Shown here: positions 30,667 through 50,090 of the stretch, piece after piece
How positions within the stretch are numbered: position 1 is the first letter of the stretch
Layout: the number at the start of each line of letters is the position of its first letter
From: Ciceribacter sichuanensis
GTDB lineage: Bacteria; Pseudomonadota; Alphaproteobacteria; Rhizobiales; Rhizobiaceae
DNA length: 64,000 nucleotides
NCBI RefSeq assembly: GCF_024055605.1
Contig: NZ_JAMXLX010000010.1
Span: forward strand, 1-64,000
Reading direction: 5' to 3'
Notes under the pieces: model-generated
What the model was told of the DNA's origin: nothing
The model's input: only the letters and a program-made list of their open reading frames with translations
Databases searched by the model: none
Translations under genes and position numbers: made by a program

Positions 30667-30668
30667 GT

Positions 30669-32398: not shown

Positions 32399-32421
32399 GC
32401 AGTTCCTTGATCAGGGAGGAG

Positions 32422-32454
32422 TTTCCGTCACCATCCCTGGGATGGTGACGGAAA
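32422..32454 (-). terminator. Intra-operon hairpin after the binding-protein gene
   Basis: A perfect 14-bp stem, TTTCCGTCACCATC / GATGGTGACGGAAA, with a five-base loop. It lies between the solute-binding protein and the first permease. Such hairpins commonly stabilise the abundant binding-protein message or attenuate the distal genes. Confidence 0.7.
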
Positions 32455-32463
32455 GCGGTCGGA

Positions 32464-33702: not shown

Positions 33703-33867
33703 CTTGCCCTCCATTGGCGATCAGATTCGATGGCCGGGACGCTTGGCGTCGTCCGGCGCTGAAATTTCCGCCGCTCTTTGCGGCAGCCGTCGACATATCG
33801 ATCGAAACGCGTGGATTCGGCGCTCGCCGTTTTCCGATTTGTTCCCCGGAAGCTTCTTTGGCTTCAT

Positions 33868-33888
33868 TAAGTCAATTGTCTTGACTTA
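33868..33888. promoter_or_regulatory. Palindromic operator in the ROK/ABC divergent region
   Basis: AAGTCAA-TTGTC-TTGACTT is a perfect 7-5-7 inverted repeat, flanked by a further T/A pair on each side. It lies between the ROK gene and the binding-protein gene in an AT-rich stretch and overlaps a TTGACT that could serve as a -35. It is the best candidate binding site for the ROK repressor. Confidence 0.65.
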
Positions 33889-33930
33889 TTTATTGTTCGA
33901 TAATCTAAACGTGTCAAGAGGAAATCTCCG

Positions 33931-35151
33931 ATGAACAATGTCCGCCCCATCCGCGCCAAGCGCGGGACGAATCTGGAAGGTGCGAGCGCGCATAACCGGC
34001 GCGTGATCGTGGAAGCACTTCGGTTGAACGGGCAATTGTCACGTGCCGACCTGGCGCGCGCGACGGCATTGACGAAACAGACGGTGTCGAACATCGTGGA
34101 TGAACTGGAACGCGACGGTCTTGTCGTGTCGCTGACCGCCGTGCGTAGCGGGCGCGGCCAGCCTTCGACGCCCTACAGGCTTGTGCCGGAGGGCGCCTAT
34201 GCCATCGGCTTGCAGATCGATCGCCATGTCACTCGCTCCATCGCAGTTGATCTTGTCGGAACTGTTTTGGTCCGCTTTGCCGCCAGCCTGCCTCAAGGTG
34301 GCCCGTCGGCCGGCGTAAAAACAGTGCTCGATCTCGTGGAGAAAACGCGCAGGGAACTGGCGAAGATCGCTACCCATTCTGAAGAACGCCTCGTTGGACT
34401 TGGCGTGGCGATGCCCGGGCCTTTCGGTATCGAGACGGTCGATGACGATCCCTGGATGATGAGCGCATGGCAGAATTTTCCACTGCTCGAGACGCTTGCC
34501 GTGGGCACCGGATTAGACGTTGCGCTCCAGAATGACGCAGCAGCGGCAGCCACGGCGGAAAAAATGATCGGCGCAGCCAACGGGATCGACCACGCCATAT
34601 GTCTCTATCTCGGTTATGGCCTTGGCGCCGGTCTTATCCTTGACGGGGATCTTTATCGCGGTGCGAATGGTAATGCGGGCGAAATCGGCATGGTTCTTAC
34701 CACCCGACCCGAGGGAAGGCTTTCCCCGCTTGAGCATCGCACTTCCATCGCCTCGCTCTGCAAGGTTATGGATATAGATCCAGCCATCGACGACCTGTAT
34801 GGCAGGATTACGGATGCCGTAGCGATGAGGAACCCAAGACTGCTCGAATGGGTGGAGGGCGCCGCGGCGGATCTGCGCGCGACGATCCAGATGAGCGAAA
34901 CCATCTTCGATCCGCAAACGATCATCCTCTGCGGGAGTTTGCCGGAAACGCTTGCGCGTCTCCTGATGCAGTCCCTCGATCCTCTGCTTCCGTCCATCGC
35001 GGAACGGCGGGACCGCACGTTTCCCCGGCTTCAACTCGGCTTTACCGATCCCTGGGCCGTGGCGGTTGGCGCCGCCGCCGAGCCGATCGGTCGCACGTTC
35101 GACCCGCGCTTTTCGGCCATTCTGAAGACGCGTGCGGGGTTCGTCGCCTAG
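33931..35151 (+). CDS. ROK-family transcriptional regulator (NagC/XylR type)
   Basis: A 406-residue protein with an N-terminal winged HTH (about 20-75: NRRVIVEALRLNGQLSRADLARATALTKQTVSNIVDEL). A ROK sugar-kinase-like domain follows (GLGVAMPGPFGI, GLGAGLILDGDLYRGANGNAGEIG). It is divergent from the ABC operon and likely represses it, with the imported sugar or its phosphate as inducer. The zinc-binding His/Cys cluster of classic ROK proteins is not obvious after the NAGEIG block. Confidence 0.9.
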   Translation: MNNVRPIRAKRGTNLEGASAHNRRVIVEALRLNGQLSRADLARATALTKQTVSNIVDELERDGLVVSLTAVRSGRGQPSTPYRLVPEGAYAIGLQIDRHVTRSIAVDLVGTVLVRFAASLPQGGPSAGVKTVLDLVEKTRRELAKIATHSEERLVGLGVAMPGPFGIETVDDDPWMMSAWQNFPLLETLAVGTGLDVALQNDAAAAATAEKMIGAANGIDHAICLYLGYGLGAGLILDGDLYRGANGNAGEIGMVLTTRPEGRLSPLEHRTSIASLCKVMDIDPAIDDLYGRITDAVAMRNPRLLEWVEGAAADLRATIQMSETIFDPQTIILCGSLPETLARLLMQSLDPLLPSIAERRDRTFPRLQLGFTDPWAVAVGAAAEPIGRTFDPRFSAILKTRAGFVA

Positions 35152-35426: not shown

Positions 35427-37151
35427 TTCGAAACGTGCGATTTCGTCCCCGGCCTGCAGATAGTCGTTGGCGCTTGCTTTCAGCCGAATCTTGCCGTTGC
35501 GTGTCGCGATGACCTGGGTTTCCATCTTCATCGCTTCCATCACCGCGATCAGGTCTCCGACGGCGACCTCCGCGCCATCCTCGACCCTGAACGCCTGTAG
35601 CGTGCCGGAAATGGGCGCCGTAATGCTCGAGGCGTCTTCCGCATCGGCCACCGGTGTCTGACCGATGCCGGACCCGACCAGGCCGCCGAGACCGGCCAGC
35701 ATGGCGGCCGGAATCCCGAGGGCGTGGCGCTTGCCATCGATCTCGACATAGGTGCGGATCAGCGTGGTGTCGGCGATCGGCTCGGGCCGGGCGGCGGCCT
35801 CCAAAGTCGATGCGAAATCCGTTTCGATCCAGCGCGTATGCACCTTGAAGCCGCCTTCACCGATGAAGTCGTCGTTTTCCACCACGGCGCGATGGAAGGG
35901 AAGAACGGTGGCGACCCCTTCAATCCGGAATTCTCCCAGAGCGCGGCGCGCGCGCGCGAGGGCCTGCTCCCGGGTCGCGCCGACGACGATCAGCTTGGCC
36001 GTCAGGGAATCGAAGGTGCCGGGCACCGTCGAGCCGGACACCACGCCGCTATCGAGGCGGATGCCGGGGCCGGAGGGAGGGGAGAAGGTCGAGATCGTGC
36101 CCGGCGTCGGCAGGAAGCCACGACCCGGATCTTCGGCATTGATGCGAAACTCGATCGCATGACCGCGTGGCGCGGGTGTCTCAGTGACTTGCAGCGGCAA
36201 ACCGTCGGCAATGCGGAACTGTTCGATGACCAGATCGATACCGGTCGTCTCTTCGGTCACCGGATGTTCGACCTGAAGCCGGGTATTGACCTCGAGGAAG
36301 GAGATCGTGCCGTCAATACCGAGCAGAAATTCGACCGTGCCGGCGCCCGAATATCCGGCCGCGGCGCAGATGCGCCTAGCGGCATCATGGATCTGCTGGC
36401 GCTGGGCCTGCGAGAGGAAGGGCGCGGGGGCCTCCTCGACGAGTTTCTGGTTGCGGCGCTGCAGCGAGCAGTCTCGGGTGCCGAGCACCAGGACATTGCC
36501 GTGCTTGTCGGCCAGAACCTGCGCCTCGATATGGCGGGGGCGGTCAAGGAAGCGTTCGAGGAAACATTCGCCGCGACCGAAGGCGGCCTTTGCCTCGCGA
36601 ACGGCGGATTCGTAGAGTTCCGCCACTTCCTCCATCTTCCAGGCAACCTTGAGTCCACGCCCGCCGCCGCCATGGGCCGCCTTGATGGCGACCGGAAGGC
36701 CATGCTGTTCGGCAAAGGCGACCACTTCCGCGGCCGTCTCGACGGGGCCGTCGCTTCCGGCGACGAGCGGTGCTCCGACGCTCAGGGCAATCCGCCGCGC
36801 TTCAACCTTGTCGCCGAGCGCTTCGATGACATGCGGGTCGGGGCCGATCCAGATCAGTCCCGCCTGCTGTACGGCGCGGGCAAACTCGGCCCGTTCGGAC
36901 AGGAATCCGTAGCCCGGATGGACCGCATCGGCCCCGGAACGCTTGGCGATGGCGATCAGCTTTTCGATGTCGAGATAGGTCTCCGCCGGCCGGCTGCCCT
37001 CCAGTCCATAGGCCTCGTCGGCCAGTGTGACGAAGAGTGCATCCATGTCCGTGTCCGCATAGACCGCGACCGATTGCAGGCCATGGTCACGACAGGCGCG
37101 GATGATGCGGACGGCGATTTCGCCGCGGTTGGCGATCAGCACTTTCTTCAT
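35421..37151 (-). CDS. Fused biotin carboxylase-biotin carboxyl carrier protein
   Basis: A 576-residue protein. The biotin carboxylase part (1-445) contains [34 protein letters not shown] and [10 protein letters not shown] linker leads to a BCCP domain (about 505-576) whose EAMKME motif has the biotinyl Lys542. It would charge biotin with carboxyl from bicarbonate at the cost of ATP. It is the last gene of the Pxp operon, so the carboxyl acceptor site is probably on the fused PxpB-PxpC protein. The family is often annotated as acetyl-CoA or methylcrotonyl-CoA carboxylase, but no carboxyltransferase of that kind is nearby. Confidence 0.9.
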
Positions 37152-37194
37152 GGATGTCTCCTCACTGTTCTTGTTGGCCGCGGGTCCGCGCGTC

Positions 37195-38796
37195 TCAAGC
37201 CTTGCTCGGCTGAATATCGGCGAAACCCGTCACGGGCCTGAAACGTATCCGGGCATTGACCGGGATCTGCCCGGCGAGATCGAGATGGTAGTCCGCCACC
37301 GTGCCGATGACGGGATAGCCGCCGGTCAGCGGATGGTCCGCCAGGAACAGAACCGGCTGGCCGCTGTGCGGCACCTGGATGGCGCCGGTGGCCGTGCCTT
37401 CGCTCGGCAGTTCCGCCCTGTCCTTGCGTTCCAGCGAGACCTCGCCGGCAAGGCGGATACCCACGCGGTTCGATTGTGGCGTCACCTGCCAGAGCTGGTC
37501 GGAGAGCGTGGCGATGCCCGTCTGCGTAAACCAGTCGCTGCGCGGCCCCATGATCACGTCGAGCGTTACGATTTCGCTGGGAGCCGGATGATCGAAGGCG
37601 GGCATTTCGGATAGCGAAACACTGGTCAGGTTCGATGTTTCGCTGTCGACTGTCAGCAGCGCTCCCGTGGTGACCGGATCGGGTCCCACCACGGCCAGCG
37701 TATCGGTCGAGGCGCTGCCGAGGACCGGCTTCACGCGAAAGCCGCCGCGGACGGCGAGGTAGCTGCGCATTCCCCGGGGGGCATGGCCAAGGGTAACGAT
37801 GTCGCCTGCTTCGAGCGAGATTGGATGATAGGTCTCGGCCTTGCTGATGCGGCCGGAGGCGTCGCGGATCGAGATCGGGCAGGGGGCGCCGGTAAGCGCC
37901 ATCACGGCGCGGCCGGATACCTCGAAGGAGAAGCCACCCGGGATGATTTCGAGACAGGGTGCGTTGACGGGATTTCCGACGACGCGGTTGGCAGCCTTGA
38001 ACGCGCCCTGGTCGAGCGCGCCGGATGCCGACACGCCCTGACCGGTCTGTCCGAAACGGCCGAGATCCTGGAACAGGGCCGGCACGGGAGCGGTCAAAAC
38101 TTTCAGCGTCGGACCGTCGGCGGCGGCCGCGACCGTTGGAGCGACGGCAACCTTCGTCCCCGTGGCGGAAACGGGAACCGTCCTCTTTTCCAGATCGAAG
38201 AACCTCACCCTGTAGCCGGGCTGAAACAGCGCCGGCGGATCGCGTGACAGGTCCCACATCTTTTCCGGTGTCGTGCCGATGATCTGCCAGCCGCCGGGGC
38301 TGGCTTGCGGATAGACGCCGGAGAACGCGCCGGCCAGGGCGACCGAGCCCGCCGGAATTTTCGTGCGCGGGCTGCTGCGGCGCGGCACGTGAAGTGCAGG
38401 ATCGCCGCCGACGAGATAGCCGAAGCCGGGAGCGAAGCCGCAGAAGGCCACTGTGAAGGTGCTCTCGGTATGGCGGCGGATGACCTCTTCGACCGAAAGA
38501 CCCGTCAGCTCCGCCACGTCGGCCAGGTCTTCGCCATGATAGCTGACCGGGATCTCGACAAGCTTGTCGGAGGTGGCAACGCGGGCCGACAAATCGCGGG
38601 TTGCGATTTCGCCGGCGAGCTCTTCCGCCGACAGCCTTGAGGGCCGGAAGCGAACCATCAGCGTGCGGGCGGCGGGCACCATGTCCTCGATGCCTTCCAC
38701 CGGATCGGCTTCGAGCGAGGCGAACAGCGCCAGCGTCTCGTCGAGATCGGCGAGTTCTACCAGCAGAACTGTCAGGCTGACGGGCAGGAAACGCAT
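37195..38796 (-). CDS. Fused PxpB-PxpC (KipI-KipA) lactam amidolyase subunit
   Basis: A 533-residue fusion. The N-terminal half (about 1-215) is PxpB/KipI-like, with [20 protein letters not shown] and [26 protein letters not shown]. The C-terminal half (about 228-533) is PxpC/KipA-like ([38 protein letters not shown]). PxpABC hydrolyses 5-oxoproline to glutamate with ATP. The KipA family is also called biotin-dependent carboxyltransferase for its similarity to urea carboxylase. Real start is ATG 38796 ([14 protein letters not shown]). In B. subtilis kipI and kipA are separate genes. Confidence 0.9.
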
Positions 38797-38803
38797 CGAA
38801 ACC

Positions 38804-39610
38804 TCAGGCGTGATATGCGGAATCGGGAATGTCGGTAATGAACATATGCCCCGGCGCATGGGTGATTGCGAAGGGCACGCCAGACGCCATAACGGCCGCC
38901 TGAGGGGTGACGCCGCAGGCCCAGAAGACGGGAACCTCACCGGGCTCGATGCGCACCGGATCACCGAATTCCGGCCTGGAAAGATCCCGGATGCCGATCT
39001 CTTCGGGAGCACCGACATGCACGGGCGCGCCATGCACCGACGGGAAACGACCGGAGATCGTGGCCGCATCGGCGACCCGCGACGCCTTGATCGGCCGCAT
39101 CGAGACCACCATGTTCCCGTGCAGGCGACCGGCCGGGCGGCAGGGCTTGTCGGTCAGGTACATCGGCACGTTCGACTTGTCGGTGATGTGACGAATTTCG
39201 ATGCCGGCTTCGACCATGGGGGTTTCGAAGGTGAAACTGCAGCCGATGAGGAAGCTGACGAGATCGGGATGTTCCGCCCAGGCGGCGGTCGCATCGGCGG
39301 TTTCCTCGGCGAGCTTGCCATCGCGCCAGATGCGATAGAGCGGCAGATCCTTGCGCAGGTCCGCGCCCGGCGCCAGAAGCGTCGCGTGCGAGCCCGGATC
39401 GGAGACGTCGAGAACCGGGCAGGCTTTCGGATTGCGTTGCGCATAAAGCAGGAAATCGAAGGCCCAGTCGCGCGGCAGCACGATCATGTTGGCCTGGGTG
39501 AAGCCGGGGGCAACGCCGGAGGTCGGCTCGATCGCGCCTGCGCGATAACGCTCGCGGGCGATACGGGCCGGCTCGGTATTGACGTGACGAAGATGGTCTG
39601 TCGCGATCAT
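38804..39610 (-). CDS. Putative hydro-lyase (DUF1445, YcsI family)
   Basis: A 268-residue protein of the DUF1445/YcsI family, with [33 protein letters not shown] and a C-terminal half containing [13 protein letters not shown] and [15 protein letters not shown]. The AMTHAPGHM-type block is the family hallmark. Relatives act on D-glutamate/5-oxo-D-proline interconversion, which fits its place between PxpA and PxpBC, the same set as ycsFGI-kipIA in B. subtilis. It may convert D-glutamate and 5-oxoproline. Confidence 0.88.
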
Positions 39611-39635
39611 TGTGTTCTTCCTTCGATGATCCTGA

Positions 39636-40400
39636 TCAAGCCGTCAGGAACGAGCGGACGGTGATGCCATCGGCCTCGAATGCGCGCCGGATTTCCCGCG
39701 CGATGGCAACGGCACCGGGGCTGTCGCCGTGGACGCAGATCGACTGCGCGTCGATCCTGATGGTCGAGCCGTCGATCGCTTCGAGCGTACCTTCACGGGC
39801 AAGCTGCAGCATGCGGCGGGCGATCAGTTGTGGGTCATGCAGGACGGAACCTTCTTCGCGACGGGAAACAAGCTGACCGTCCGGCGTGTAGGCGCGGTCG
39901 GCGAAAGCTTCCGCGACCACGTTCAGGCCCGACTTGCGGGCGAGTTCGAGGATTGGAGATCCTGCAAGGCCCATCAGGACGAGCGAGGGGTCGATGGCCT
40001 TGATGCCATCGATCACCGCCTGGCCCTGCTTCGGATCGTATGCGATGCGATTGTAAAGCGCGCCATGCGGCTTGACATATCCGACGCCAACGCCGGCAGC
40101 GGCGGCGATGCCCTTGAGGGCACCGATCTGATAGATGACGTCGGCGATGAGTTCTCCGCCCGTCACGTCCATGTCGCGCCGGCCGAAGCCGACGCGATCC
40201 GGATAGGAGACATGCGCCCCGATGGAAACACCTTTCCCGGCCGCCGCCTTGACGGTCTTCAGAATGCCGGCGGGGTCCCCGGCATGGAAGCCGCAGGCGA
40301 CATTGGCGCTGGACACGATGGCGAGCATTGCCGCGTCATCGCCCATGGCCCAGGCGCCATAGCTTTCACCGAGGTCACTGTTCAGATCGATGGCAGTCAT
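39636..40400 (-). CDS. pxpA: 5-oxoprolinase subunit PxpA (LamB/YcsF family)
   Basis: A 254-residue protein: [17 protein letters not shown].., [30 protein letters not shown] and [11 protein letters not shown] are the conserved YcsF blocks. It works with PxpB and PxpC in ATP-dependent opening of 5-oxoproline. ATG at 40400 starts the conserved N-terminus; the longer frame overlaps the transporter gene and is not real. It begins 11 bp after the transporter stop. Confidence 0.93.
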
Positions 40401-40411
40401 GTCTCTTTTCC

Positions 40412-41671
40412 TCAGGAAGCAGTCAGCAGCGCGAAGATCGGGCCGATCGACTTGTAGCCCATGTACCAGGTGAGCGCGCAGGTCAGCACACCGAGCGCCA
40501 GCAACCAGCGCGGATAGCGATAGCCGCCCATGAGGTCCGAACGAGCCCAGGCCGCATAGATGAAGATCGACAGGCCGATCGGCAGGATCAGACCGTTCAG
40601 ACCGCCGACGAAGACGAGCATCTGGGCCGGTGGCGTGGTGATGACCACGTAGAAGAACAGCGATACGGCGATGAAGATCACGGTGGCGATGTTGCGGGCG
40701 CGTTCGCTGATGTCCTTCTTGAAGACGGTGATGAACGAGACCGAGGTATAGGCGGCACCGATGACCGAGGTGATCGCGGCAAACCACAGCACGGCACCGA
40801 AGATGCGATAGCCGACATCGCCGGCGGCGGCCTGGAAAGCCTGCGCTGCAGGGTTTGCCCCCTTGCCCGAGATGTCGATCACGACACCGCTGGCAACGAC
40901 GCCGAGGATTGCAAGGAAGAGCACATAGCGCATCAGCCCGGTGACGGCGATGCCCGTCAGCGCCGCGCGGTTGACGGCTCCGAGGTTTTCGATGCCGACC
41001 GTCCCCTTGTCGAGCAGGCGATGGGCGCCGGAATAGGTGATGTAGCCGCCGACGGTGCCGCCGACGATGGTGGTGATCGTGGCGAAGTCGATCGTGCTCG
41101 GCAGGAAGGTCTGGAAAAGCGCATCACCGACCGGGGGACCGGAAACGATGGCGACATAAAGCGTCAGGACGATCATCAGGACGCCGGCCACGATGATCAG
41201 CCGGTCGATGGCGACGCCTGCGCGCTTCGACAGGAATATGGCGATGGCGATCAGCGCGCTGACCGCACCGCCCCATTTCGGATCGATGCCGAGCATGGCG
41301 TTGAGGCCGAGGCCGGAGCCGCCGATATTGCCGATGTTGAAGAAAAGGCCGCCGACGATGACGAGAACGGCCAGCACATAACCCGTGCCCGGAACGGCGG
41401 CATTGGCAATATCGGAGGCGCGCATCCTGGTGAGCGTCACGATCCGCCAGATGTTCAACTGCACCACGAAATCGATCAGGATCGACGCCAGAATGGCAAA
41501 GGCAAAGGCAGACCCGAGCTTGGTCGTGAAGGTCGCCGTCTGGGTGATGAAGCCCGGCCCGATGGCCGAGGTTGCCATGAGGAAGATCGCGGCCGTCAAT
41601 GCCGCGCGGCGTGACCTTGCGGACATGCCGCCGGGGCTGGCGCTGCTTTGGGATGTCGAATTCTGATCCAT
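40412..41671 (-). CDS. NRAMP-like transporter lacking the metal-site motifs (YcsG type)
   Basis: A 419-residue inner-membrane protein with eleven or so helices and an NRAMP-like fold. TM1 reads [18 protein letters not shown], whereas true NRAMP metal carriers have DPGN there. TM6 has [16 protein letters not shown] in place of the MPH motif. This fits the YcsG branch found with PxpA genes. Metal transport is therefore doubtful. As first gene of the Pxp operon, it may import the operon's substrate (5-oxoproline or another lactam); that is inference. Confidence 0.82.
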
Positions 41672-42066
41672 GTTACCCTCTCCGTTGATCGATCGATTGT
41701 TCGAAACTCGTGGCGGAATTGACTATCGATAAAGGCAAGGTCGTCTGGTTTCACAATTCTGTCAATATTGTTCAACAATTTTATTGCATCGTTCTACCAT
41801 TGTGGACAAATGTTGAGCGATTTGCTTTCCTCTTGGGCACTTATCTCCTCGATTTGCGTAGATATGCACCATCCCGGATCGGTTGTCGGCACTGGCCTTC
41901 ACAAGTCTGGAGGGTTGCCGTCAGGCGCGATGCACGGATGCAGCTGGGCAAACATCGCTGACCATAAAGCTCTCCTGCGAGGGAGAAGCAGTTTCGTTTC
42001 CGTGCAAAGCACGTTAACGATGCGCTGGGGCCAATTACTTGCATTTGGAATGTTCAAGGGACATTG
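41672..42066. promoter_or_regulatory. Divergent regulatory region of Pxp operon and GntR gene
   Basis: A 395-bp gap without an obvious gene. It contains the perfect palindrome ATTGTT-C-AACAAT (41767-41779), a related site ATTGTGGACAAAT about 30 bp away (41799-41811), and ATTGTTCGAAAC near 41697. These TTGT/ACAA boxes resemble operators of FCD-type GntR regulators. The rest of the gap holds nothing I recognise. Confidence 0.55.
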
Positions 42067-42729
42067 ATGGCTGAGCAGGAAACCACATCGGCGCTTGCGC
42101 CTCGCCTGGCGGAAGAGATCCGCGACAAGCTCATTGCCGGGGAACTGAAGCCCGGTCAGCGCCTGTCAGAAGCGGCCTTGAGCGGTGATCTCGCGGTTTC
42201 GCGCAATTCGCTGAGGGAAGCTTTCCGCCTGCTCACCAAGGAAGGATTGCTGCACCACGAACCCCATCGAGGCGTTTTCGTCGCCACTCCCAGCATGGCC
42301 TCGATCATCGACATCTACCGGGTGCGCCGAATGATCGAATGCCAGGCGATCGCCAGAGCCTATCCCAATCACCCCGCCGTCGCGCGCATGCGCAGCGCGG
42401 TGGAATGCGCAAGGAGCGCCCGCGATGAGAAGGATTGGGGCACGGTCGGCAGCCAGAACATGGTGTTCCATGCCGCGATCGTGGACCTCGCCGACAGTCA
42501 GCGTCTCAATGCCTTCTACGCGCAAATCGCCGCCGAGCTTCGCTTGAGCTTCGGCCTGCTCGCCAGCCCTGAGCTTCTGCACGGCCCGTATGTGGACCTC
42601 AACGCCGCGCTGGTCGAGATGCTGGTGGCCGGAAGGACCAAGGAGGCGGCCGAGGCACTGGAGAGCTATCTTCTGCAGTCCGAACGCACGGTGCTGGCAG
42701 CGTTTTCGCGAATTGACGTCAATACATGA
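42067..42729 (+). CDS. GntR-family regulator (FCD domain)
   Basis: A 220-residue protein. Winged HTH at about 5-70 (LAEEIRDKLIAGELKPGQRLSEAALSGDLAVSRNSLREAFRLLTKEGLL), followed by an all-helical FCD ligand-binding domain (80-215). ATG at 42067 has AAGGG upstream; TTG at 42064 is less likely. It is divergent from the Pxp operon and is its probable repressor, with an organic acid or lactam ligand (and a metal ion, as in many FCD domains). It takes the place of the IclR-type KipR of B. subtilis. Confidence 0.92.
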   Translation: MAEQETTSALAPRLAEEIRDKLIAGELKPGQRLSEAALSGDLAVSRNSLREAFRLLTKEGLLHHEPHRGVFVATPSMASIIDIYRVRRMIECQAIARAYPNHPAVARMRSAVECARSARDEKDWGTVGSQNMVFHAAIVDLADSQRLNAFYAQIAAELRLSFGLLASPELLHGPYVDLNAALVEMLVAGRTKEAAEALESYLLQSERTVLAAFSRIDVNT

Positions 42730-43413: not shown

Positions 43414-43602
43414 ATGAAAAGATTTCTGTCAGTCATGACCGTGGAGAGCGCTGAGCGCCCGTAGCATTGCCGCACTTGCCCAGACCACGATCACTCCGCC
43501 GGCCAAAGATGGTCATGCGCCCGCTATCACCACGCCCACGGCAATAATCCGACCGCTCCCGTGGAAGGCACCAACAGCTTCACCGGGGAGCAGGATCGAT
43601 AA
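43414..43602 (+). pseudogene. Broken small secreted protein gene
   Basis: GGAGAAATCC leads to ATG 43414 and MKRFLSVMT.., the start of a signal peptide, but the frame stops within 17 codons. A second frame continues SIAALAQTTITPPAKDGHAPAITTP. A third resumes NNPTAPVEGTNSFTGEQDR and stops at 43600-43602. Read together these give a Thr/Pro-rich exported protein of a type I recall from rhizobia, broken by at least two frameshifts. It overlaps the 3' end of the apbE gene by 23 bases on the opposite strand. Confidence 0.6.
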
Positions 43603-44491
43603 ACAAGACAGAGAGCCCGAGGGAGCGGGCGAGCTGCTGACCCCGTTCACGGCCCAGTACCATCATTGCGGTGGCCCAGGCATCTGCCATCATGCACGTT
43701 TCGGCAAGGACGGTGACGGAGGCGGGGGCGTTCAGAAGCGGCATGCCACGCCGGGGATCCATGGTGTGGCTGAGACGGCGTCCACCGACCTCCACCCAAT
43801 GACGGTAGTCGCCGGAGGTCGCGACTGCAATGTCGGTGAGTTCGAGGATCGAGTGCGCGGCACGACGCTCGCTGTCCGGTGCCTCCACGGCGACGGTCCA
43901 GGCAGAGCCGTCCGGCTGGGTGCCGATGGCACGCAATTCCCCATCAATGGACAGAAGCGCACCGTCGATACCAAAGGCCTGTGCCGTGGCGGCGAGACGG
44001 TCGACAGCATAGCCTTTGGCGATACCGTTCAAATCGAAGGCCATCGCCTGCGACTTTCGGGCGCTTCCTTGCGCCTGATCGAGTTCGAGAACCTCATGGG
44101 CCGGGCTGCGAGATTTGGCCCGCGCAGCCCGGATGCGATACTCGTCGGCTCGGTTGGGGCCGAAGCCCCAGGCGACCACGGCGTCGGCCATGCCGATGTC
44201 GAAGGCCCCGCCCGATACGCGCCCGATCTTGAGGCCGGCGGCGAGGACTTCCATCAGCGCCGGAGGCAGCAAGACCGGCTCGCCGGGGTCGGCCGCGCTC
44301 AGGCGGTTGAGGTCGCTGTCCGGCTTCCACGTTGACATCTGCGCATCCACCTCCGCTACGGACTTGGCCATTGCGATCCTGACAGGCTCGGGGTCGAAGC
44401 CGGCAGGCGCATGGAAGAGGGCGGACCAGCGGGTTCCCATGGTCGGCCCGTTCAGAGCGTGGCGAACAAGGTCAGTAAACGTCTTCCGCAT
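43580..44491 (-). CDS. apbE: FAD:protein FMN transferase (ApbE)
   Basis: A 303-residue ApbE. Conserved motifs: NGPTMGTRWSALF near the N-terminus, MSTWKPDSDLNRL, GGAFDIGMADAVVAWGFGP, FDLNGIAKGYAVDRLA and AVATSGDYRHWVEVGGRRLSHTMDPRRG. It moves FMN from FAD onto a Thr or Ser of target proteins, with Mg2+. The N-terminus lacks an obvious signal peptide or lipobox, so its compartment is not certain. It overlaps the reductase gene by 20 bases as last gene of the redox operon. Its likely target is the DUF2271 protein, two genes upstream. Confidence 0.92.
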   Translation of the reverse strand: MRKTFTDLVRHALNGPTMGTRWSALFHAPAGFDPEPVRIAMAKSVAEVDAQMSTWKPDSDLNRLSAADPGEPVLLPPALMEVLAAGLKIGRVSGGAFDIGMADAVVAWGFGPNRADEYRIRAARAKSRSPAHEVLELDQAQGSARKSQAMAFDLNGIAKGYAVDRLAATAQAFGIDGALLSIDGELRAIGTQPDGSAWTVAVEAPDSERRAAHSILELTDIAVATSGDYRHWVEVGGRRLSHTMDPRRGMPLLNAPASVTVLAETCMMADAWATAMMVLGRERGQQLARSLGLSVLFIDPAPR

Positions 44492-46670
44492 AGCGTCCTT
44501 CCGCCTTCAATGTCGCAGGGCTCATGCCCTGGGTCGCAAGAATCTCGCCGATTGCCGCAGCGACACCGGCCGCCATGTCACGCCCGCCGCAGACCATGAC
44601 CTGTGCCCCGTCCCGGAGCAGACGCGCCACGCGTTCGCCATCCCGGCGAAGGGCGTCCTGAACGTAGATCGGTGCCGGGCCGCGGGAATAGGCGTTGGTG
44701 ATGGAGGCAAGCCTGCCGTCTTCTCGCCACGCCGCCAGTTCCTCGGCATAGAGAGCATCGCTTGAGGGATGCCGGGCACCAAAGAACAGATGCATCGGCC
44801 GACCCTTCGAGTTGTTTCTCGCAAAGCCGGCGAGGGGGCCGATGCCGGTGCCGGCGCCGATGAGCAGGACAGGCATATTGCCGCGCTTCGGCTTGAACAC
44901 GGGGTTGGGGCGCAGGAAGGCCTGCACACGATCGCCGGGTTCCATCAGCGTCAGTTGGGTCGAGCACAGTCCGCCCGGTTGTTTGCGCACGCAGATCTCG
45001 ATGAAGCCGTCGCGACTGCCCGAGGCGAGGGAGTAGAAGCGGGGTACGACCGAGCCTTCCGGCACGACGCCGATGAGGTCGCCGGGCTCGAAGGTTGGGA
45101 AGGTTCGTCCGGTCAGGCGCTGCCAGATCGAGGCATGCGGCAATGCAAAGCGCAGGATGGCCGTCGGTGCCTGAACCTCGGCACCATAATCGCGCCGCGA
45201 CACGAGAACCAGTTCGCGCGTCTGGAGCTTTTTCGGCTGGTGATTGAGATCGAATTCGGTTCCGAGCACGGCGGAGAGGGCGCGGCCCCAGCGGGCGAAA
45301 TCCTGCGGCGACTGGCGATCGACGGTGTCCATGGGCAGCAGTTGCTGCCAGCCCTTGGCCTCGGCCGCACGCGCGACTTCGGCGGCATAGCCGCAAAAGG
45401 CGGGGAAGCTGCGATCACCGAAGCCCAGGATCGCAACCGGTGCGGTGGGTGCTCCGGGCAGGCCGCCCAGGCGTTCGAGGAAGCCCTTCGCTGAAGCCGG
45501 TGCTTCACCCTCGCCATAGGTGGCGGCGAGCAGAATGATGCGGCGAGCCTTCGGCCATTGATCCGGGGCAAAGGTGGACATCGCTGCGGTGTGAACCTGC
45601 GCACCGATCGAAGTCAGTGAATCCTGAAGTGTGTCGGCAAAGGCCCAGGTGCTGCCGCCCTCGCTGCCGACGAGGATGATGGTGTCGGCCTTGCCTGCGG
45701 GCACGCTGGCCTGTCTTCGGCTGCGCCGACCGGAGAACCAGAGCCGGATGCCGGACCAGCCCATGATCGGAACGCCAAGCGCCGAGAGCCCGAGAAGAAG
45801 TCCCAGTACCGACGCGCCACGACCGGTATGCAGAAGAGTTACCACGTCGCCGATGCGTTGCCATGCGCCTGCGTCGTTCCAGGCGAGAAGCGCGCCGTTT
45901 CCCTGGTCGACGTAGCCCTCGCCGGACGCGGTCTTCAGCGTATAGACGTCGGTCTTGTCGCCGGCGGCGGGGAAGGTAAGCGAGCGAAGTTCATCAACGG
46001 GAACCTGCTGAAGAGCCGCGATCTCTGCCGGCAGAAGTCCGCTCTTGCCGCTCGTCGCCGCCGGAAACGCGGGAGCGCCGGCGCCCTCCGGCACAAGGCC
46101 GAAGGTTGCCGCCGTCATCCACAGCGCCGTTGCCGAGGAGAGGGTCAATCCCCAGACCGACAGCCGGGCGATCGCCGCATGACGGCGCCCCTCGCCCTGG
46201 CCGCGCATGGGAGAGAACAGATGCCGCCAGCCGCCGGAGCGGCGGGCAAGGAGCAGCAGCCCGGAGAGGCTGAGCAACAGCATGGCGGCGGCGCCCGATG
46301 CGACCACGATGCGCCCGCCGTCACCGAGAAACAGGGAACGATGGAGGTTGGTCAGCCAGCGTTGCAATGCCGGGGTGTCCGCGCTGCCGATCCTCGCGCC
46401 GGTCCCTGGATCGATGGTAGCGGCGGCGGGCTGGTCTCCTTCGTAAAAATAGACAGTGATCTTGCCGGAGGGCGCCCGCCGGATCTGTTCCACCCTTGGT
46501 TCCTGAGCCTGAACTCGGCTTGCCAGTTCAGCCACGCTCATCCCGGATGAGCGTGGTGCGTTCAAGACCTCCATGGCGGGATAGATCGACAGGACCGCTC
46601 CGCTCAAGGCGATGACGCCCAGGAGAATCGCGGCGATGAGGCCTGGCCAACGATGAAGCGTCCGGATCAT
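44472..46670 (-). CDS. PepSY-transmembrane / flavodoxin / ferredoxin-NADP reductase fusion
   Basis: A 732-residue inner-membrane flavoprotein. Residues 1-330 are a PepSY-TM module with four helices (first MIRTLHRWPGLIAAILLGVIALSGAVL). Residues about 335-470 are a flavodoxin-like FMN domain (IILVGSEGGSTWAFADTL, AATYGEGEAPASA). The C-terminal part is an FNR-type FAD/NADPH domain (RFYSLASGS, GGLCSTQL, LIGAGTGIGPLAGFARNN, MVCGGRDMA). It resembles sulfite-reductase flavoproteins joined to a PepSY membrane part. Expected role: move electrons from NADPH through FAD and FMN across the membrane. ATG 46670 has AAAGGG upstream and is preferred over GTG 46679. Confidence 0.9.
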   Translation of the reverse strand: MIRTLHRWPGLIAAILLGVIALSGAVLSIYPAMEVLNAPRSSGMSVAELASRVQAQEPRVEQIRRAPSGKITVYFYEGDQPAAATIDPGTGARIGSADTPALQRWLTNLHRSLFLGDGGRIVVASGAAAMLLLSLSGLLLLARRSGGWRHLFSPMRGQGEGRRHAAIARLSVWGLTLSSATALWMTAATFGLVPEGAGAPAFPAATSGKSGLLPAEIAALQQVPVDELRSLTFPAAGDKTDVYTLKTASGEGYVDQGNGALLAWNDAGAWQRIGDVVTLLHTGRGASVLGLLLGLSALGVPIMGWSGIRLWFSGRRSRRQASVPAGKADTIILVGSEGGSTWAFADTLQDSLTSIGAQVHTAAMSTFAPDQWPKARRIILLAATYGEGEAPASAKGFLERLGGLPGAPTAPVAILGFGDRSFPAFCGYAAEVARAAEAKGWQQLLPMDTVDRQSPQDFARWGRALSAVLGTEFDLNHQPKKLQTRELVLVSRRDYGAEVQAPTAILRFALPHASIWQRLTGRTFPTFEPGDLIGVVPEGSVVPRFYSLASGSRDGFIEICVRKQPGGLCSTQLTLMEPGDRVQAFLRPNPVFKPKRGNMPVLLIGAGTGIGPLAGFARNNSKGRPMHLFFGARHPSSDALYAEELAAWREDGRLASITNAYSRGPAPIYVQDALRRDGERVARLLRDGAQVMVCGGRDMAAGVAAAIGEILATQGMSPATLKAEGRYAEDVY

Positions 46671-46688
46671 GGCGTGCACCCTTTCTGC

Positions 46689-47159
46689 TCAAAGACCGTA
46701 AGTGAAGTCGGCGATGTAGCGGCTGCCGGCAACCGGTTTGGCGGCGCCGTTCGTGGTGAGTGGAACCACGATCTCCGACGGGCTGTCGCGCATGTCTTCG
46801 ACGGCAGCATCGACATGCAACTCGTAGCCCGCGTCGAACAGTGTGTCGGCCAGGTCGAGCGTCACGGAGAGCGTGCGGCCGGCACCGACGCTCGCGCCGG
46901 TGATGCCGCTGATCTCGGCGGTGTTCCCGCCGGAGGCCCGGTACCAGCCGCTCAGGTGCTCGTAGTATTTGGCCTTGCCGCCCGCCATCCACAGGCTGCC
47001 GGCATAGGTGCCGTCGGCGGCCGTGACGTAATAGGCGAGATAGGCGCCATCGCCACCGTAGTTCTTGAGGTTGGTGGTGAGCGTAACCTCACGGGCGAGG
47101 GCCATGCCGGGGAGAACGAGCGCGGTGGTGAGGCCAAGGGCTGCAACAAGGGATTTCAT
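46689..47159 (-). CDS. DUF2271 exported protein, candidate flavinylated electron carrier
   Basis: A 156-residue protein with a signal peptide (MKSLVAALGLTTALVLPGMALA) and a DUF2271 domain (VTLTTNLKNYGGDGAYLAYYVT, SLWMAGGKAKYYEHLSGW). Residues 84-90 read SGITGAS, close to the ApbE acceptor pattern (D-x-x-S/T-G-A-T/S), so Ser90 is a possible FMN attachment site; the usual leading Asp is Ser here. It lies in one operon with the reductase and ApbE, 18 bp upstream of the reductase. Confidence 0.85.
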   Translation of the reverse strand: MKSLVAALGLTTALVLPGMALAREVTLTTNLKNYGGDGAYLAYYVTAADGTYAGSLWMAGGKAKYYEHLSGWYRASGGNTAEISGITGASVGAGRTLSVTLDLADTLFDAGYELHVDAAVEDMRDSPSEIVVPLTTNGAAKPVAGSRYIADFTYGL

Positions 47160-47189
47160 CGTCTGTTTCCTTTGATCAGAGGGAGGGGA

Positions 47190-47531
47190 TCAGTTGACCT
47201 GAACCTTCGGGGTCGATCCCCTGAGGATCAGACCGTTGTTCGGCGGCGTTGTCGGGCCGGCGGGGAGCGGCGAGGGCTGTGAGCGACCGTTCCGTTCGTT
47301 GTCGTCGTCATCATCGTCTTCACCGTCTTCACCGTCGTCACCGTGGCGCTGCTGGCCCGTCAGCCAAACGTCGTCATCGTCGGTGTCGACGGGGTGGATC
47401 ATCGAGCGGGATGCGGCCTCGCCTGGGACGGCAGAACTGAAGAAGGGCAGGGGGACTGCAAAGGCGTCGAAAGCCGCAAGAACAGTTCCGGATATGAGGG
47501 TTGCGAGGAGAAGTCTGCGATGTTCTTTCAT
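47190..47531 (-). CDS. Acidic exported protein of the redox locus
   Basis: A 113-residue protein with a signal peptide (MKEHRRLLLATLISGTVLAAFDAFA). The mature part is low-complexity: two acidic runs (DTDDDD, and GDDGEDGEDDDDDDNE), then a Pro-rich tail. The acidic runs would bind multivalent cations. The sensor kinase of this locus has a similar acidic run in its periplasmic loop. First gene of the operon with DUF2271, reductase and ApbE. No family recognised. Confidence 0.7.
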   Translation of the reverse strand: MKEHRRLLLATLISGTVLAAFDAFAVPLPFFSSAVPGEAASRSMIHPVDTDDDDVWLTGQQRHGDDGEDGEDDDDDDNERNGRSQPSPLPAGPTTPPNNGLILRGSTPKVQVN

Positions 47532-47607
47532 GGATGGGCTCCTGGTCGTGTGATGATTGCTGGATGTGCTGTCCGGCTGATCGCTTCCTGACGGCTCGCA
47601 GCGATCT

Positions 47608-47626
47608 GCTTCAGCTTCCCGTCAGC
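47608..47626. promoter_or_regulatory. Candidate response-regulator box, operon copy
   Basis: GCTTCAGCTTCCCGTCAGC contains two TCAGC half-sites 11 bp apart, the helical spacing of OmpR/PhoB-type sites. It starts 77 bp upstream of the acidic-protein gene. The first 15 bases recur exactly at 48001-48015. Confidence 0.55.
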
Positions 47627-47644
47627 GTCGATGCGCGAGGCCAA

Positions 47645-47926
47645 CTAGCGACGGTTGTGGTGCTCTTCGTCGATCTCGATGACGGTGAGTGTCTGCGGAT
47701 CGATTTTCGCCTCGAAGGCCCGACCGTTGCCGTCGATGGCATGGATCTCGTAGCAGCCGTCATCCATCTTGATGTGCCTCAGCTGCCAGCCGCGCGCCTC
47801 TGCCATCGCACGCACGGCCTCGCGTGGCTGCCAGTTCGCCATGGGTATGTTGCAGTCGTCCTCGGCCAGTGCCGTGCCGGTCGCAAGTGCGATCAATGCC
47901 GTTGTGAGAACCGTTCGAGATGTCAT
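47645..47926 (-). CDS. Small exported PepSY-domain protein
   Basis: A 93-residue protein with a signal peptide (MTSRTVLTTALIALATGTALA). One PepSY domain follows (WQPREAVRAMAEARGWQLRHIKMDDGCYEIHAIDGNGRAFEAKIDPQTLTVIEID). Two Cys residues flank the domain and could form a disulfide. It is divergent from the two-component genes. Such small PepSY proteins commonly accompany PmrAB/QseBC-like systems and may modulate the sensor or bind the same ligand. Confidence 0.85.
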   Translation of the reverse strand: MTSRTVLTTALIALATGTALAEDDCNIPMANWQPREAVRAMAEARGWQLRHIKMDDGCYEIHAIDGNGRAFEAKIDPQTLTVIEIDEEHHNRR

Positions 47927-48000
47927 GTCATTCCTCCACTTCGGACGGGAGGAGAATGGCCTTCCGAAGCTGACCGGTCGCTGACAGAGGGTGCGACCTG

Positions 48001-48019
48001 GCTTCAGCTTCCCGTAAGG
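48001..48019. promoter_or_regulatory. Candidate response-regulator box, divergent copy
   Basis: GCTTCAGCTTCCCGTAAGG repeats the 47608 box exactly for 15 bases. It lies 75 bp upstream of the PepSY gene and 49 bp upstream of the response regulator, so it could serve both directions and autoregulation. The second half-site is weaker than in the other copy. Confidence 0.55.
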
Positions 48020-48063
48020 CGGGTGATGGACTAAAGCTGATGACGCAAAGACGAGGAAGGTCG

Positions 48064-48723
48064 ATGAGGGTACTGCTGGTCGAAGACGATACCGTGCTGG
48101 GAGCGGCCGTGCGCGACCAGATCGCTTCGGATGGGCATTCGATAGATTGGGTCACACGGCTCGACCGGGCGGGCGACGCGCTGGCGAGCGCCGTCTACGA
48201 CTTGGTTCTACTTGACCTGATGCTGCCCGATGGGCGCGGCATTCCCTTCCTCAAGGTTCTTCGCGGGCGCGGTGATGTCACCCCCGTCATCATCCTCACG
48301 GCGCTCGATCAGGTGTCCGACCGGATCGAAGGACTGAACGCCGGGGCGGACGACTATATGGTCAAACCCTTCGACCTCGCCGAACTCTCGGCGCGTATCG
48401 GTTCGGTGGCCCGGCGTTATGTCGGCAATCCCAATCCGCTGATCACACTCGGCTCGCTGGAAATCGATTTAGCCGCGCGTAGCGTTCTCAAGGACGGTCG
48501 ACCGGTGGTTCTGACCGCGAGAGAATGGGTGCTGTTCGAGGCCTTCCTGCAGCGCCCCGGTCAATTGCTGTCCAAGGGACAGCTTGAGGAGAGGCTCTAC
48601 TCCTTCGACACGGAAATCGACAGCAATGCGATCGAGGTGCATGTCAGCCGCTTGCGCAAGAAGCTCGGGGCACATGTGATCGAAACGGAACGCGGTCTCG
48701 GTTATCGCCTGGGGCGGTCATGA
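48064..48723 (+). CDS. OmpR-family response regulator (QseB/PmrA-like)
   Basis: A 219-residue regulator. Receiver domain with phospho-acceptor Asp51 (YDLVLLDLMLPDGRGIP), acidic pocket VEDD and switch Lys in VKPFDLAEL. The C-terminal winged helix ends with IEVHVSRLRKKLGAHVIETERGLGYRL. ATG 48064 (MRVLLVEDD) is the natural start; an in-frame upstream ATG at 48040 is less likely. Its stop overlaps the kinase start. It probably controls the two 15-bp boxes of this locus. Confidence 0.93.
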   Translation: MRVLLVEDDTVLGAAVRDQIASDGHSIDWVTRLDRAGDALASAVYDLVLLDLMLPDGRGIPFLKVLRGRGDVTPVIILTALDQVSDRIEGLNAGADDYMVKPFDLAELSARIGSVARRYVGNPNPLITLGSLEIDLAARSVLKDGRPVVLTAREWVLFEAFLQRPGQLLSKGQLEERLYSFDTEIDSNAIEVHVSRLRKKLGAHVIETERGLGYRLGRS

Positions 48724-50090
48724 AGCCCCCTCGCTCGCTTCAGGCGCGTCTGGCGCTGGCGGTCGGGTTGTCGGTGACGGTCCTGTGGCTCGCTGCCGCC
48801 TCCGTCACGGCGAATCGGCTCGGGCGAGAAATGGAGCAAGTCTTCGACAGGGACCTCGAAGCGACGGCGCAACGGATATTGCCCCTTGCCCTTCATGACC
48901 TTCGGAAACGCAATAACGACAACGACAACGGCGACGAAGACGACGACGAGGGCGACCGGCATATTGAGCGGCTGGACGAACGCGAGGAGCCGGTGACCTA
49001 TGTCGTAAGGGACTTGAGCGGCACGGTTCTGCTGCAATCCCACGGATCGAAAGGCCTCCAATTCCCGCCCTTCGAGAAGGCAGGTTTCAGCAAGACGGAG
49101 ACCCATAGGATCTATTCAGATGCGGCACGCGACGGACGAATCACGATCGCCGTGGCCGAACCGCTCGATCACCGGACCAAGGTCTGGCGCAGCATGTTGC
49201 TTAGCCTCGCGTTGCCGCTGATCGTGGTGATCCCGCTTAGTCTTGCAGCCATCGCATTTGCCACGCGTGGGGGGTTGCGCCCGGTTCGAAAGCTGAAAGG
49301 TGCCCTCGAGACACGTGGCGTGCAGGATCTTTCGCCTTTACCCGATACGGGGCTTCCGACGGAGTTGGAACCTATCACCGGGGCCATAAACCAGTTGCTC
49401 GCCCGCCTGAGGGCTGCCTTCGAGGCCGAGCGCAATTTCGCGGCCAATGCTGCTCACGAACTGCGCACCCCGGTTGCCGGTGCCATCGCTCAGGCGCAGC
49501 GCATAAGGGCGGAAACGCGGGATGACAATGCCGCCCAACGCGCAACCGAGATCGAAGCGACCTTGAAACGGCTGATGCGTATGTCAGAAAAACTGATGCA
49601 GCTTGCCAGGGCCGAGGGAGGTCGCCTCAGGCTGGAAGTCCCGTCCGACCTGCGGCCTGTTCTGCGACTGGTCACCGCGGATTTTGCCCGCTGCGGTGCT
49701 GGCCAGAGGATTACACTTTCCCTGCCCCCCGATCCTGTGATTTCGGATCTCGATCCCGACGCCTTCGGCATTCTCTGTCGCAACCTCATCGAGAACGCGC
49801 TGCGTCACGGTCCTGCCGATCAACCTGTCGAGGTAGCCCTCGACTCGGCAGGGGAACTTCGTGTGCGGAACGAGGGTGCGCCCCTCTCGCCGGATATCAT
49901 TGGCAAACTGGTTCAGCGCTTCGAGCGTGGCGCCACGGGCTCCGAGGGTAGCGGCCTCGGCCTTGCCATCGTCAAGGCGATTACCGAGCGTGCCGGCGGG
50001 CATCTCTCCGTGACCTCGCCGATTCCCGGAAGAGAGGCCGGGGTTCAGGTGGCTGTTCTATTGCCAGTCAGTCGACCCGAAAGAACCTGA
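48720..50090 (+). CDS. Sensor histidine kinase with an acidic periplasmic loop
   Basis: A 456-residue kinase. TM1 is about 10-30, a periplasmic sensor 31-155, TM2 156-182, then a HAMP-like linker. The dimerisation domain has His246 (NAAHELRTPVAGAI) and the ATPase domain includes ENALRHG and GSGLGLAIVKAI. The sensor has a striking run of acidic and Asn residues at 65-80 (NNDNDNGDEDDDEGD), suited to binding metal cations, as with the acidic iron-sensing motifs of PmrB. It overlaps the regulator gene by four bases. Confidence 0.93.
   Translation: MKPPRSLQARLALAVGLSVTVLWLAAASVTANRLGREMEQVFDRDLEATAQRILPLALHDLRKRNNDNDNGDEDDDEGDRHIERLDEREEPVTYVVRDLSGTVLLQSHGSKGLQFPPFEKAGFSKTETHRIYSDAARDGRITIAVAEPLDHRTKVWRSMLLSLALPLIVVIPLSLAAIAFATRGGLRPVRKLKGALETRGVQDLSPLPDTGLPTELEPITGAINQLLARLRAAFEAERNFAANAAHELRTPVAGAIAQAQRIRAETRDDNAAQRATEIEATLKRLMRMSEKLMQLARAEGGRLRLEVPSDLRPVLRLVTADFARCGAGQRITLSLPPDPVISDLDPDAFGILCRNLIENALRHGPADQPVEVALDSAGELRVRNEGAPLSPDIIGKLVQRFERGATGSEGSGLGLAIVKAITERAGGHLSVTSPIPGREAGVQVAVLLPVSRPERT

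Follow-up and report, generated by a model that had tools for sequence, protein, structure and literature searches.

A DUF2271-ApbE locus with its own two-component system in Ciceribacter sichuanensis and its predicted role in electron export

Results

Gene content and organization of the locus

We analyzed a 64,000-nucleotide (nt) stretch of DNA from Ciceribacter sichuanensis (Rhizobiaceae; contig NZ_JAMXLX010000010.1, positions 1 to 64,000 of the forward strand; called the window below), in which positions 43580-50090 hold a predicted electron-transfer locus built around an exported DUF2271 protein, the flavin transferase ApbE and a two-component system. On the minus strand, genes for a PepSY_2 protein, an acidic exported protein, the DUF2271 protein, a PepSY_TM-flavodoxin-FNR fusion (the reductase) and ApbE follow one another in the order of transcription; on the plus strand, genes for a response regulator and then a sensor histidine kinase are divergently oriented (Table 1). 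A preliminary description had placed the acidic protein, DUF2271, the fusion and ApbE in one operon, and the coordinates of the named genes and their strong Pfam matches agreed with this. The gene overlaps it mentioned and the sequence SGITGAS at residues 84-90 of DUF2271 were likewise present; the overlaps measure 20 nt between the reductase gene and apbE and 4 nt between the regulator and kinase genes. The PepSY_2 gene, which had gone unmentioned, is also part of the locus. The open frame of apbE amounts to 308 amino acids (aa), about 5 codons more, upstream, than the 303-aa protein. The best NCBIfam matches of the regulator were PmrA and QseB, both under their cut-offs, and conservation of the beginning MRVLLVEDD suggests that its translation starts at 48064. 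The kinase matched HisKA, HATPase_c and 2CSK_N, the last over its Pfam cut-off, with HAMP just under its own.

Table 1. Features of the locus (window coordinates).
Feature	Position	Strand	Basis
ApbE (FAD:protein FMN transferase), 303 aa	43580..44491	-	PF02424, 2.8e-75
PepSY_TM-flavodoxin-FNR fusion, 735 aa	44472..46679	-	PF03929 (PepSY_TM), 7.9e-32; Flavodoxin_1; NAD_binding_1
Exported DUF2271 protein, 156 aa; predicted substrate for flavinylation	46689..47159	-	PF10029, 8.4e-34; hydrophobic N-terminus
SGITGAS codons (DUF2271 residues 84-90), predicted acceptor Ser90	46890..46910	-	
Acidic exported protein, 113 aa	47190..47531	-	Relatives upstream of DUF2271
Codons of the acidic protein's C-terminal tail PPNNGLILRGSTPKVQVN	47193..47246	-	Tail profile matches
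Putative response-regulator operator TTCAGCTTCCCGTCAG	47610..47625	+	Precedes the acidic-DUF2271-reductase-ApbE genes
PepSY_2 small exported protein, 93 aa	47645..47926	-	PF13670, 3.9e-27, over cut-off; PF03413 below cut-off
Putative operator TTCAGCTTCCCGTAAG	48003..48018	+	Divergent promoter, PepSY_2/regulator
OmpR-family response regulator (PmrA/QseB-like)	48040..48723	+	PF00072, PF00486; response-regulator match 2e-23
Sensor histidine kinase, 456 aa, D/E-rich periplasmic loop	48720..50090	+	HisKA, HATPase_c 1.1e-16, 2CSK_N

Loci used for comparison

We collected 125 related loci, 120 by similarity to DUF2271 and 5 by similarity to the reductase; one set of relatives consisted of the best 80 of at least 557, which biases it toward the present subclass. 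The order sample comprised 40 DUF2271 regions from 39 genomes; it leaves out G292, three more matches in G199, the second match in each of G149, G175, G239 and G273, and three genomes whose DUF2271 matches fell below the cut-off. The phylum sample comprised 60 regions and leaves out at least G488, G500 and G581, second matches of G405, G563 and G654, matches below the cut-off, and G000/G077, which were already included elsewhere. From 216 plasmid records, 5 were examined. We labelled as class A the 50 loci with a higher-scoring DUF2271 (a PF10029 score of roughly 131 bits or higher). The sampled loci are mutually related, and all counts below ignore kinship.

A dedicated two-component system and a conserved operator

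DUF2271, the reductase and ApbE were found together in 118 of the 125 loci, which points to more than a chance grouping. In these 118 core loci, a kinase was found in 114, a regulator in 113 and a PepSY_2 relative in 102. A regulator of at least 52% identity lay nearby in 33 of 35 core loci of the order sample, and one of at least 57% identity at 8 of 10 class B loci of the phylum sample; at the class A loci of that sample, no regulator above 35% identity was found (0/50). Across 297 genomes, the regulator (E <= 1e-75) occurred in 34 of the 41 with DUF2271 over the Pfam cut-off versus 14 of the 256 others (Fisher p 1.3e-26, uncorrected for kinship).

The pattern TT[AC]AG-N6-[TG]T[AC]AG was first spotted by eye in the window and tested afterwards. 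The two boxes of the window are direct repeats, TTCAG-N6-GTCAG, and they are its only exact matches to the pattern; with up to two mismatches allowed, the window gave 24 matches versus 15.9 expected, 24 being reached by 3 of 100 shuffles, and the locus itself contains just the two exact ones. In 115 regions upstream of regulator genes (220 bp each, window included), the repeat with a 6-bp spacer was present in 63 in one orientation and in 86 in the other, whereas repeats with spacers of 3-5 or 7-9 bp were absent from the same regions; among 220-bp pieces drawn at random from these loci the rate was 0.010. With the window excluded, 108 of 114 loci carry a box in the promoter of the regulator gene, 77 carry one at another site no more than 900 bp upstream of DUF2271, and 113 have at least one of the two. 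The background elsewhere was 27 sites in 1.9 Mb (0.014 per kb), some of them also inside the module, and class A loci showed no excess of boxes (6 in 714 kb). These results, together with the co-occurrence of regulator and DUF2271, uphold the earlier claim of a dedicated two-component system, whose regulator is predicted to bind the repeats.

In L265 (7514-7562) and L269 (6807-6855), two boxes 33 bp apart stand directly upstream of DUF2271; neither stretch contains a close regulator, which may be elsewhere in the genome. A regulon outside the locus was also considered, but the genome gave 6 matches to the pattern versus 4 to its reverse, indistinguishable from chance. The acidic kinase loop was found in the window and its rhizobial relatives, among 23 sequences inspected of 110 aligned.

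DUF2271 as the substrate of ApbE

ApbE attaches flavin mononucleotide (FMN) from flavin adenine dinucleotide (FAD) to target proteins, and the preliminary description had named DUF2271 as its target here, with SGITGAS as the acceptor motif. The acceptor part of this motif, [ST]GAS, was present in all 123 related DUF2271 proteins, and G88, A89 and S90 were invariant in 28 of 28 aligned sequences. The genome holds a single ApbE match and a single DUF2271 match, and searches of it for FMN_bind, NqrB/RnfD and DUF3570 gave zero matches; within the window locus, DUF2271 is the only protein with [ST]GA[ST]. The assignment of DUF2271 as the ApbE substrate is thus supported by the motif and by the gene content of the genome. 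The idea itself is not new, since a DUF2271 protein of another species was shown in 2021 to be flavinylated by its ApbE at [ST]GA[ST], with the acceptor threonine required (PMC8238504).

An AlphaFold2 (AF2) model of DUF2271 (pLDDT 86.5) consisted mainly of beta strands, and a Foldseek search with it against the PDB gave zero matches at E <= 0.001. Kinship with C2 domains was considered and is not claimed: the best VIA-align hit was a C2 domain (Z 8.2, rmsd 2.6, 94 residues), closely followed by many C2-like rows.

The reductase and two predicted hemes

The reductase contains four transmembrane helices, two PepSY regions and cytosolic FMN, FAD and NADPH domains. Sites for FAD (RxYS, GGxCS), a flavodoxin domain and an NADPH domain like that of CysJ and P450 reductases were recognized, and by Foldseek its AF2 model was structurally similar to P450 reductases and CysJ, in keeping with the earlier designation of an NADPH-type diflavin reductase. 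His9, His113, His167 and His284 were invariant in 118 of 118 reductase sequences. The AF2 model (pLDDT 84.9; pTM 0.52, hence uncertain domain placement) puts these residues at the ends of the four long transmembrane helices or close by. If the N-terminus is inside, H9 and H167 would hold a heme at the cytosolic side and H113 and H284 one at the periplasmic side, an arrangement reported for the PepSY protein FoxB (PMC11334425, PMC13038864). The PepSY protein of known structure is described as having two hemes, each with two conserved histidines (PMC11334425). The preliminary description had electrons pass from NADPH via FAD and FMN across the membrane; its diflavin part is supported, and the crossing very probably runs over two membrane hemes, implied by the four invariant histidines, rather than over flavins alone.

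An ApbE without a recognizable export signal

Export was predicted from hydrophobicity: with the open frame read back, the most hydrophobic run of 12 residues ahead of the ApbE domain was averaged and compared with a threshold of 1.6; this is a crude measure, not SignalP. The N-terminus of the window's ApbE, MRKTFTDLVRHALN-GPTMGTRW, contains no hydrophobic stretch, and none of the ApbEs of 116 module loci exceeded the threshold (112 measured, maximum 1.05; 4 by eye). By the same test, 120 of 121 DUF2271 proteins did, and so did 16 of 17 control ApbEs from this bacterial order, one of them barely (1.61), drawn from the 29 best-scoring ApbE matches other than the window's. The one control ApbE without a signal also adjoins a DUF2271 gene. 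In class A, ApbE was detected within 5 kb at 31 of 50 loci: 25 of these ApbEs scored 1.6 or less, three between 1.6 and 1.9 and three above 1.9, one of the last being an ApbE-DUF2271 fusion. The remaining 19 loci gave no profile match to ApbE or, at one of them, to DUF2271.

Two gene fusions were encountered. In L263 (5854-7347, plus strand), an ApbE-DUF2271 fusion has a signal-like N-terminus, so that both domains would be exported together, in contrast to the separately encoded ApbEs. In L037 (7393-9837, minus strand), PepSY_TM, flavodoxin and ApbE domains are joined in one protein, with DUF2271 in the adjacent gene; by the topology this suggests, the ApbE domain, standing behind PepSY_TM and flavodoxin, would be on the cytosolic side.

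The simplest reading of an ApbE without an export signal beside a DUF2271 protein with one is that the flavin is attached before export, probably in the cytoplasm. According to a review, ApbE typically sits in the periplasm, anchored to a membrane (PMC12052999). In the published co-expression of DUF2271 and ApbE in Escherichia coli, signal-truncated proteins were used (PMC8238504), which shows that modification can proceed without export.

The acidic tail protein

Searches of Pfam and NCBIfam with the acidic protein gave no match. Its calculated pI is 4.06 for an assumed mature part of 88 aa. Its relatives share a signal-like N-terminus, a middle part rich in D/E or D/H and a C-terminal tail, PPxNGLFxxGxxPxVxVN. 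A tail profile, made from the window together with 69 of the loci later scanned with it, matched in 97 of 123 DUF2271 loci; in 91 of these the match lies at most 500 nt upstream of DUF2271 and shares its strand. In 25 loci the tail pattern stood on a PepSY_2 protein, a few of these possibly being artefacts of the start codon. Among 10 more class B loci, 5 had the tail; it was found in none of the 50 class A DUF2271 loci and in none of 18 loci with the same two-component family and no DUF2271. From this distribution, the tail may dock on DUF2271 or the reductase. The proteins form an unnamed family of candidate metal carriers.

Other partners of the regulator family

In 18 stretches around close regulator relatives or second regulators (L159-L176), DUF2271 was not found by BLAST. 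Eleven of them (L165-L171, L173-L176) contain PepSY_2 and cytochrome b561 (PF01292 tested for one), three more (L159, L163, L164) a DUF4405 gene, and 9 of the 18 at least one box. On three Rhodobacterales plasmids, a FRE-type or b-type cytochrome lies inside the cluster. In one Rhodobacterales version of the cluster (L076, 7463-7957), there is a protein without a Pfam match, with a box upstream at 7371. The operator and the varied partners of the regulator family offer a handle on when bacteria push electrons outward.

Distribution and neighbouring genes

A near-identity plasmid search with window positions 30000-54900 gave mainly Sinorhizobium and Rhizobium matches, among them a Rhizobium daejeonense plasmid with 97.3% identity over 30000-35147. 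Related loci were found on plasmids, and 4 of the 5 plasmids examined were typed as conjugative. Among other sampled genomes of the same family, DUF2271 was found in 0 of 12 in the order sample and 0 of 16 in the phylum sample (the samples overlap). The absence from same-family genomes and the related loci on plasmids suggest horizontal spread of the locus. Matches to repC were found on three other contigs of the genome and none on the window's contig. Rhizobium johnstonii 3841 also carries the locus (L079); the listing of a literature search on phenotypes of this strain had no entry on the genes of the locus.

A stretch at 43416-43601 on the plus strand, convergent with apbE, resembles by eye a decayed gene for a small exported protein. 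On a related plasmid (L075), an EF-hand gene lies downstream of apbE. Window positions 35500-42700 hold a cluster of oxoprolinase, biotin carboxylase and NRAMP transporter genes with about 80% DNA identity to rhizobial plasmids, seemingly unrelated to the electron relay.

Metal transporter genes beside the loci

A VIT or heavy-metal P-type ATPase gene (at least 45% identity to the seeds) was present in 45 of 113 loci and directly adjoined ApbE in 31. VIT proteins are Fe/Mn transporters. One neighbouring P-type ATPase passed only the general heavy-metal and Cd-type cut-offs, the copper subfamily staying below its cut-off; its TPC motif may point to a type. On two Rhizobium plasmids (L074, L075) a VIT family gene lies near apbE, directly downstream of it in R. 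daejeonense and, in R. leguminosarum, beyond EF-hand and DUF302 genes on the opposite strand.

Discussion

A signal-controlled electron export chain

From the genes, motifs, conservation, operator statistics and hydrophobicity pattern, we infer the biochemical steps, docking partner, metal and signal of a chain that would export electrons under the control of the two-component system. The divergent regulator would bind TTCAG-N6-GTCAG, driving its own/PepSY_2 promoter and the acidic-DUF2271-reductase-ApbE genes, and the PepSY_2 protein would probably tune the kinase, as DbfQ does DbfS. ApbE would load FMN onto the DUF2271 precursor in the cytoplasm, and DUF2271 would then exit through Sec. Within the PepSY_TM fusion, NADPH would reduce FAD and then FMN in the cytosolic domains; electrons would traverse the inner membrane via two bis-histidine hemes and arrive at FMN held covalently on Ser90 of periplasmic DUF2271. 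The acidic protein would probably be a metal-holding partner whose tail docks on either DUF2271 or the reductase. Fe(III) would most likely be the final acceptor. We assign this chain, from cytosolic NADPH to a metal acceptor, a probability of about 0.68.

The likely task of the locus is probably the regulated reduction of periplasmic metal, iron in particular. Reduction of metal, probably iron, is favoured by the VIT and ATPase neighbours, by the acidic protein and by published work on iron: PepSY-like clusters have been proposed to reduce iron (PMC8238504), and Fur controls DUF2271/PepSY clusters in Caulobacter (PMC3751524, PMC12004947).

Several observations weigh against this reading. Neither VIT nor a P-type ATPase was found in the stretches of 68 of the 113 loci, nor beside the window locus, the VIT genes of this genome being on other contigs; the NRAMP-like gene about 1.9 kb away (named via plasmid annotation) belongs to the separate oxoprolinase cluster. 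The ExxE motif was not conserved in the consensus of 110 aligned sensor regions, so the sensor lends no support to an iron signal, and iron sensing through ExxE or the acidic kinase loop, neither being conserved, was dropped. The leading Ser of SGITGAS in the window was shared by 0 of 123 relatives, which have Asn (80) or Asp (43) instead. A review reports minor effects only for an Asp-to-Ala change at the motif of another ApbE substrate, and a seven-residue motif as sufficient (PMC12052999). A D-x-x-[ST]-G-A-[ST] stretch occurs in 9 of 117 relative reductases, the window's not among them. Finally, FoxB was not among the 50 Foldseek rows for the reductase model, all of which were diflavin-reductase proteins.

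The locus might instead serve periplasmic repair or redox stress, with the kinase sensing envelope stress and DUF2271-FMN reducing a protein or a small organic oxidant. The regulator family does stand beside PepSY_2-cytochrome b561 or DUF4405 where there is no DUF2271, as if it governed membrane electron export generally, and DbfQRS responds to membrane integrity, its reporter being unresponsive to iron (PMC12714742). We consider this unlikely, as the neighbour clusters occurring in at least 6 loci, judged by eye (unannotated, with many antisense artefacts), included no repair enzyme and were headed by VIT and P-type ATPase.

The same relay could also end on copper, handling periplasmic Cu(II) with a P-type ATPase as partner. 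The PepSY_TM protein CrpH has been proposed as a periplasmic copper reductase (PMC13038864), and the ATPase described above scores, below cut-off, with the copper subfamily. VIT is the commoner partner, however (41 versus 32 of 118 loci), L159, which has the same regulator family and no DUF2271, carries a FecCD-type transporter, and the DUF2271/PepSY literature, in the passages available, speaks of iron. Copper as acceptor is accordingly rather improbable to us, and we retain iron as the likely acceptor.

Where the flavin is attached

Flavinylation of exported proteins is generally assigned to the periplasm; here the transferase seems to be cytosolic and its substrate exported. If this is true, covalent flavoproteins are made inside the cell and then exported by Sec. 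We would extend this, as a tentative proposal just short of even odds, to a scheme in which cytosolic ApbE loads the Sec precursor, no periplasmic FAD is needed and the bound prosthetic group passes through Sec, in which the regulator family acts as the switch for interchangeable electron exporters of the membrane, and in which the acidic tail protein delivers metal to loaded DUF2271.

The lack of an export signal in all 116 module ApbEs could also mean that DUF2271 is unflavinylated in this subclass and that ApbE modifies another, cytosolic protein. In Klebsiella pneumoniae, an ApbE lacking a signal peptide acts on a fumarate reductase that is soluble and cytosolic (PMC12052999), and the motif-like stretch in 9 of 117 reductases would suit such a role. 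Against this stand the invariant GAS of DUF2271, the lack of [ST]GA[ST] in any other protein of the window locus, and the modification of signal-truncated proteins in E. coli, by which export is not needed (PMC8238504); we regard it as improbable. A periplasmic ApbE that modifies DUF2271 there despite having no recognizable signal would fit the typical location of ApbE (PMC12052999) but is very improbable, given a hydrophobic segment in 0 of 116 module ApbEs versus 16 of 17 others of the order and the fusion of the ApbE domain behind PepSY_TM and flavodoxin in L037. Loading of DUF2271 in the cytoplasm, before export, is the reading we keep as the probable one.

Comparison with known systems

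The core idea has been published: ApbE is known to act on DUF2271, and clusters combining the two with PepSY already count as a named system (PMC8238504). Like the PepSY-like flavinylation systems of Meheust et al. (2021, PMC8238504), the locus combines PepSY_TM, DUF2271 with [ST]GA[ST] and ApbE. That survey counted 3220 PepSY-like clusters, 2833 of them with DUF2271, and 1077 PepSY-like genes with an NAD-binding domain; its first step discarded genes without a predicted signal peptide. Unlike the systems in its main account, the present one has a two-component system with an operator, PepSY_2, acidic proteins with a tail and an ApbE without an export signal. What appears new, in silico, is the conserved two-component system with its operator, the acidic tail family, the ApbE without export signal and the four invariant histidines. 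A literature search that left most subscription journals and supplements outside brought up no publication on the operator, on the tail family or on a DUF2271-modifying ApbE in the cytosol.

Caulobacter CCNA_03155-03159 likewise comprises DUF2271, a PepSY-type membrane protein, ApbE and a flavoprotein reductase; there, the reductase is listed under its own gene, the cluster includes DUF4198 and Fur exerts the control (PMC3751524, PMC12004947). Iron control by Fur and a DUF4198 partner are common in PepSY-like flavinylation systems, though not required. Its DUF2271 is assumed to be of class A, which has no operator excess, no tail protein and no regulator above 35% identity.

The ferrisiderophore reductases FoxB and FsrB share with the present reductase a PepSY_TM with conserved histidines for two hemes (PMC11334425, PMC13038864); unlike in them, the PepSY_TM part here belongs to the same protein as a cytosolic diflavin reductase and has a predicted flavinylated protein as partner.

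As in DbfQRS and PA2658/PA2659-BqsRS, a small exported PepSY protein stands beside the two-component system (PMC12714742). The BqsR box, TTAAG-N6-TTAAG (PMC4682146), has the same pentamer length and 6-bp spacing as the box described here, whose pentamers are TTCAG and GTCAG instead. Unlike in those systems as described, the clear Pfam match is to PepSY_2 and not to PepSY, the orientation is divergent and the reductase operon is a further predicted target; the ExxE motif of the ferrous iron sensor BqsRS is not conserved in the kinase. The locus apparently adds a regulated version to a known system; its two notable points are the site of action of ApbE and the role of the tail protein.

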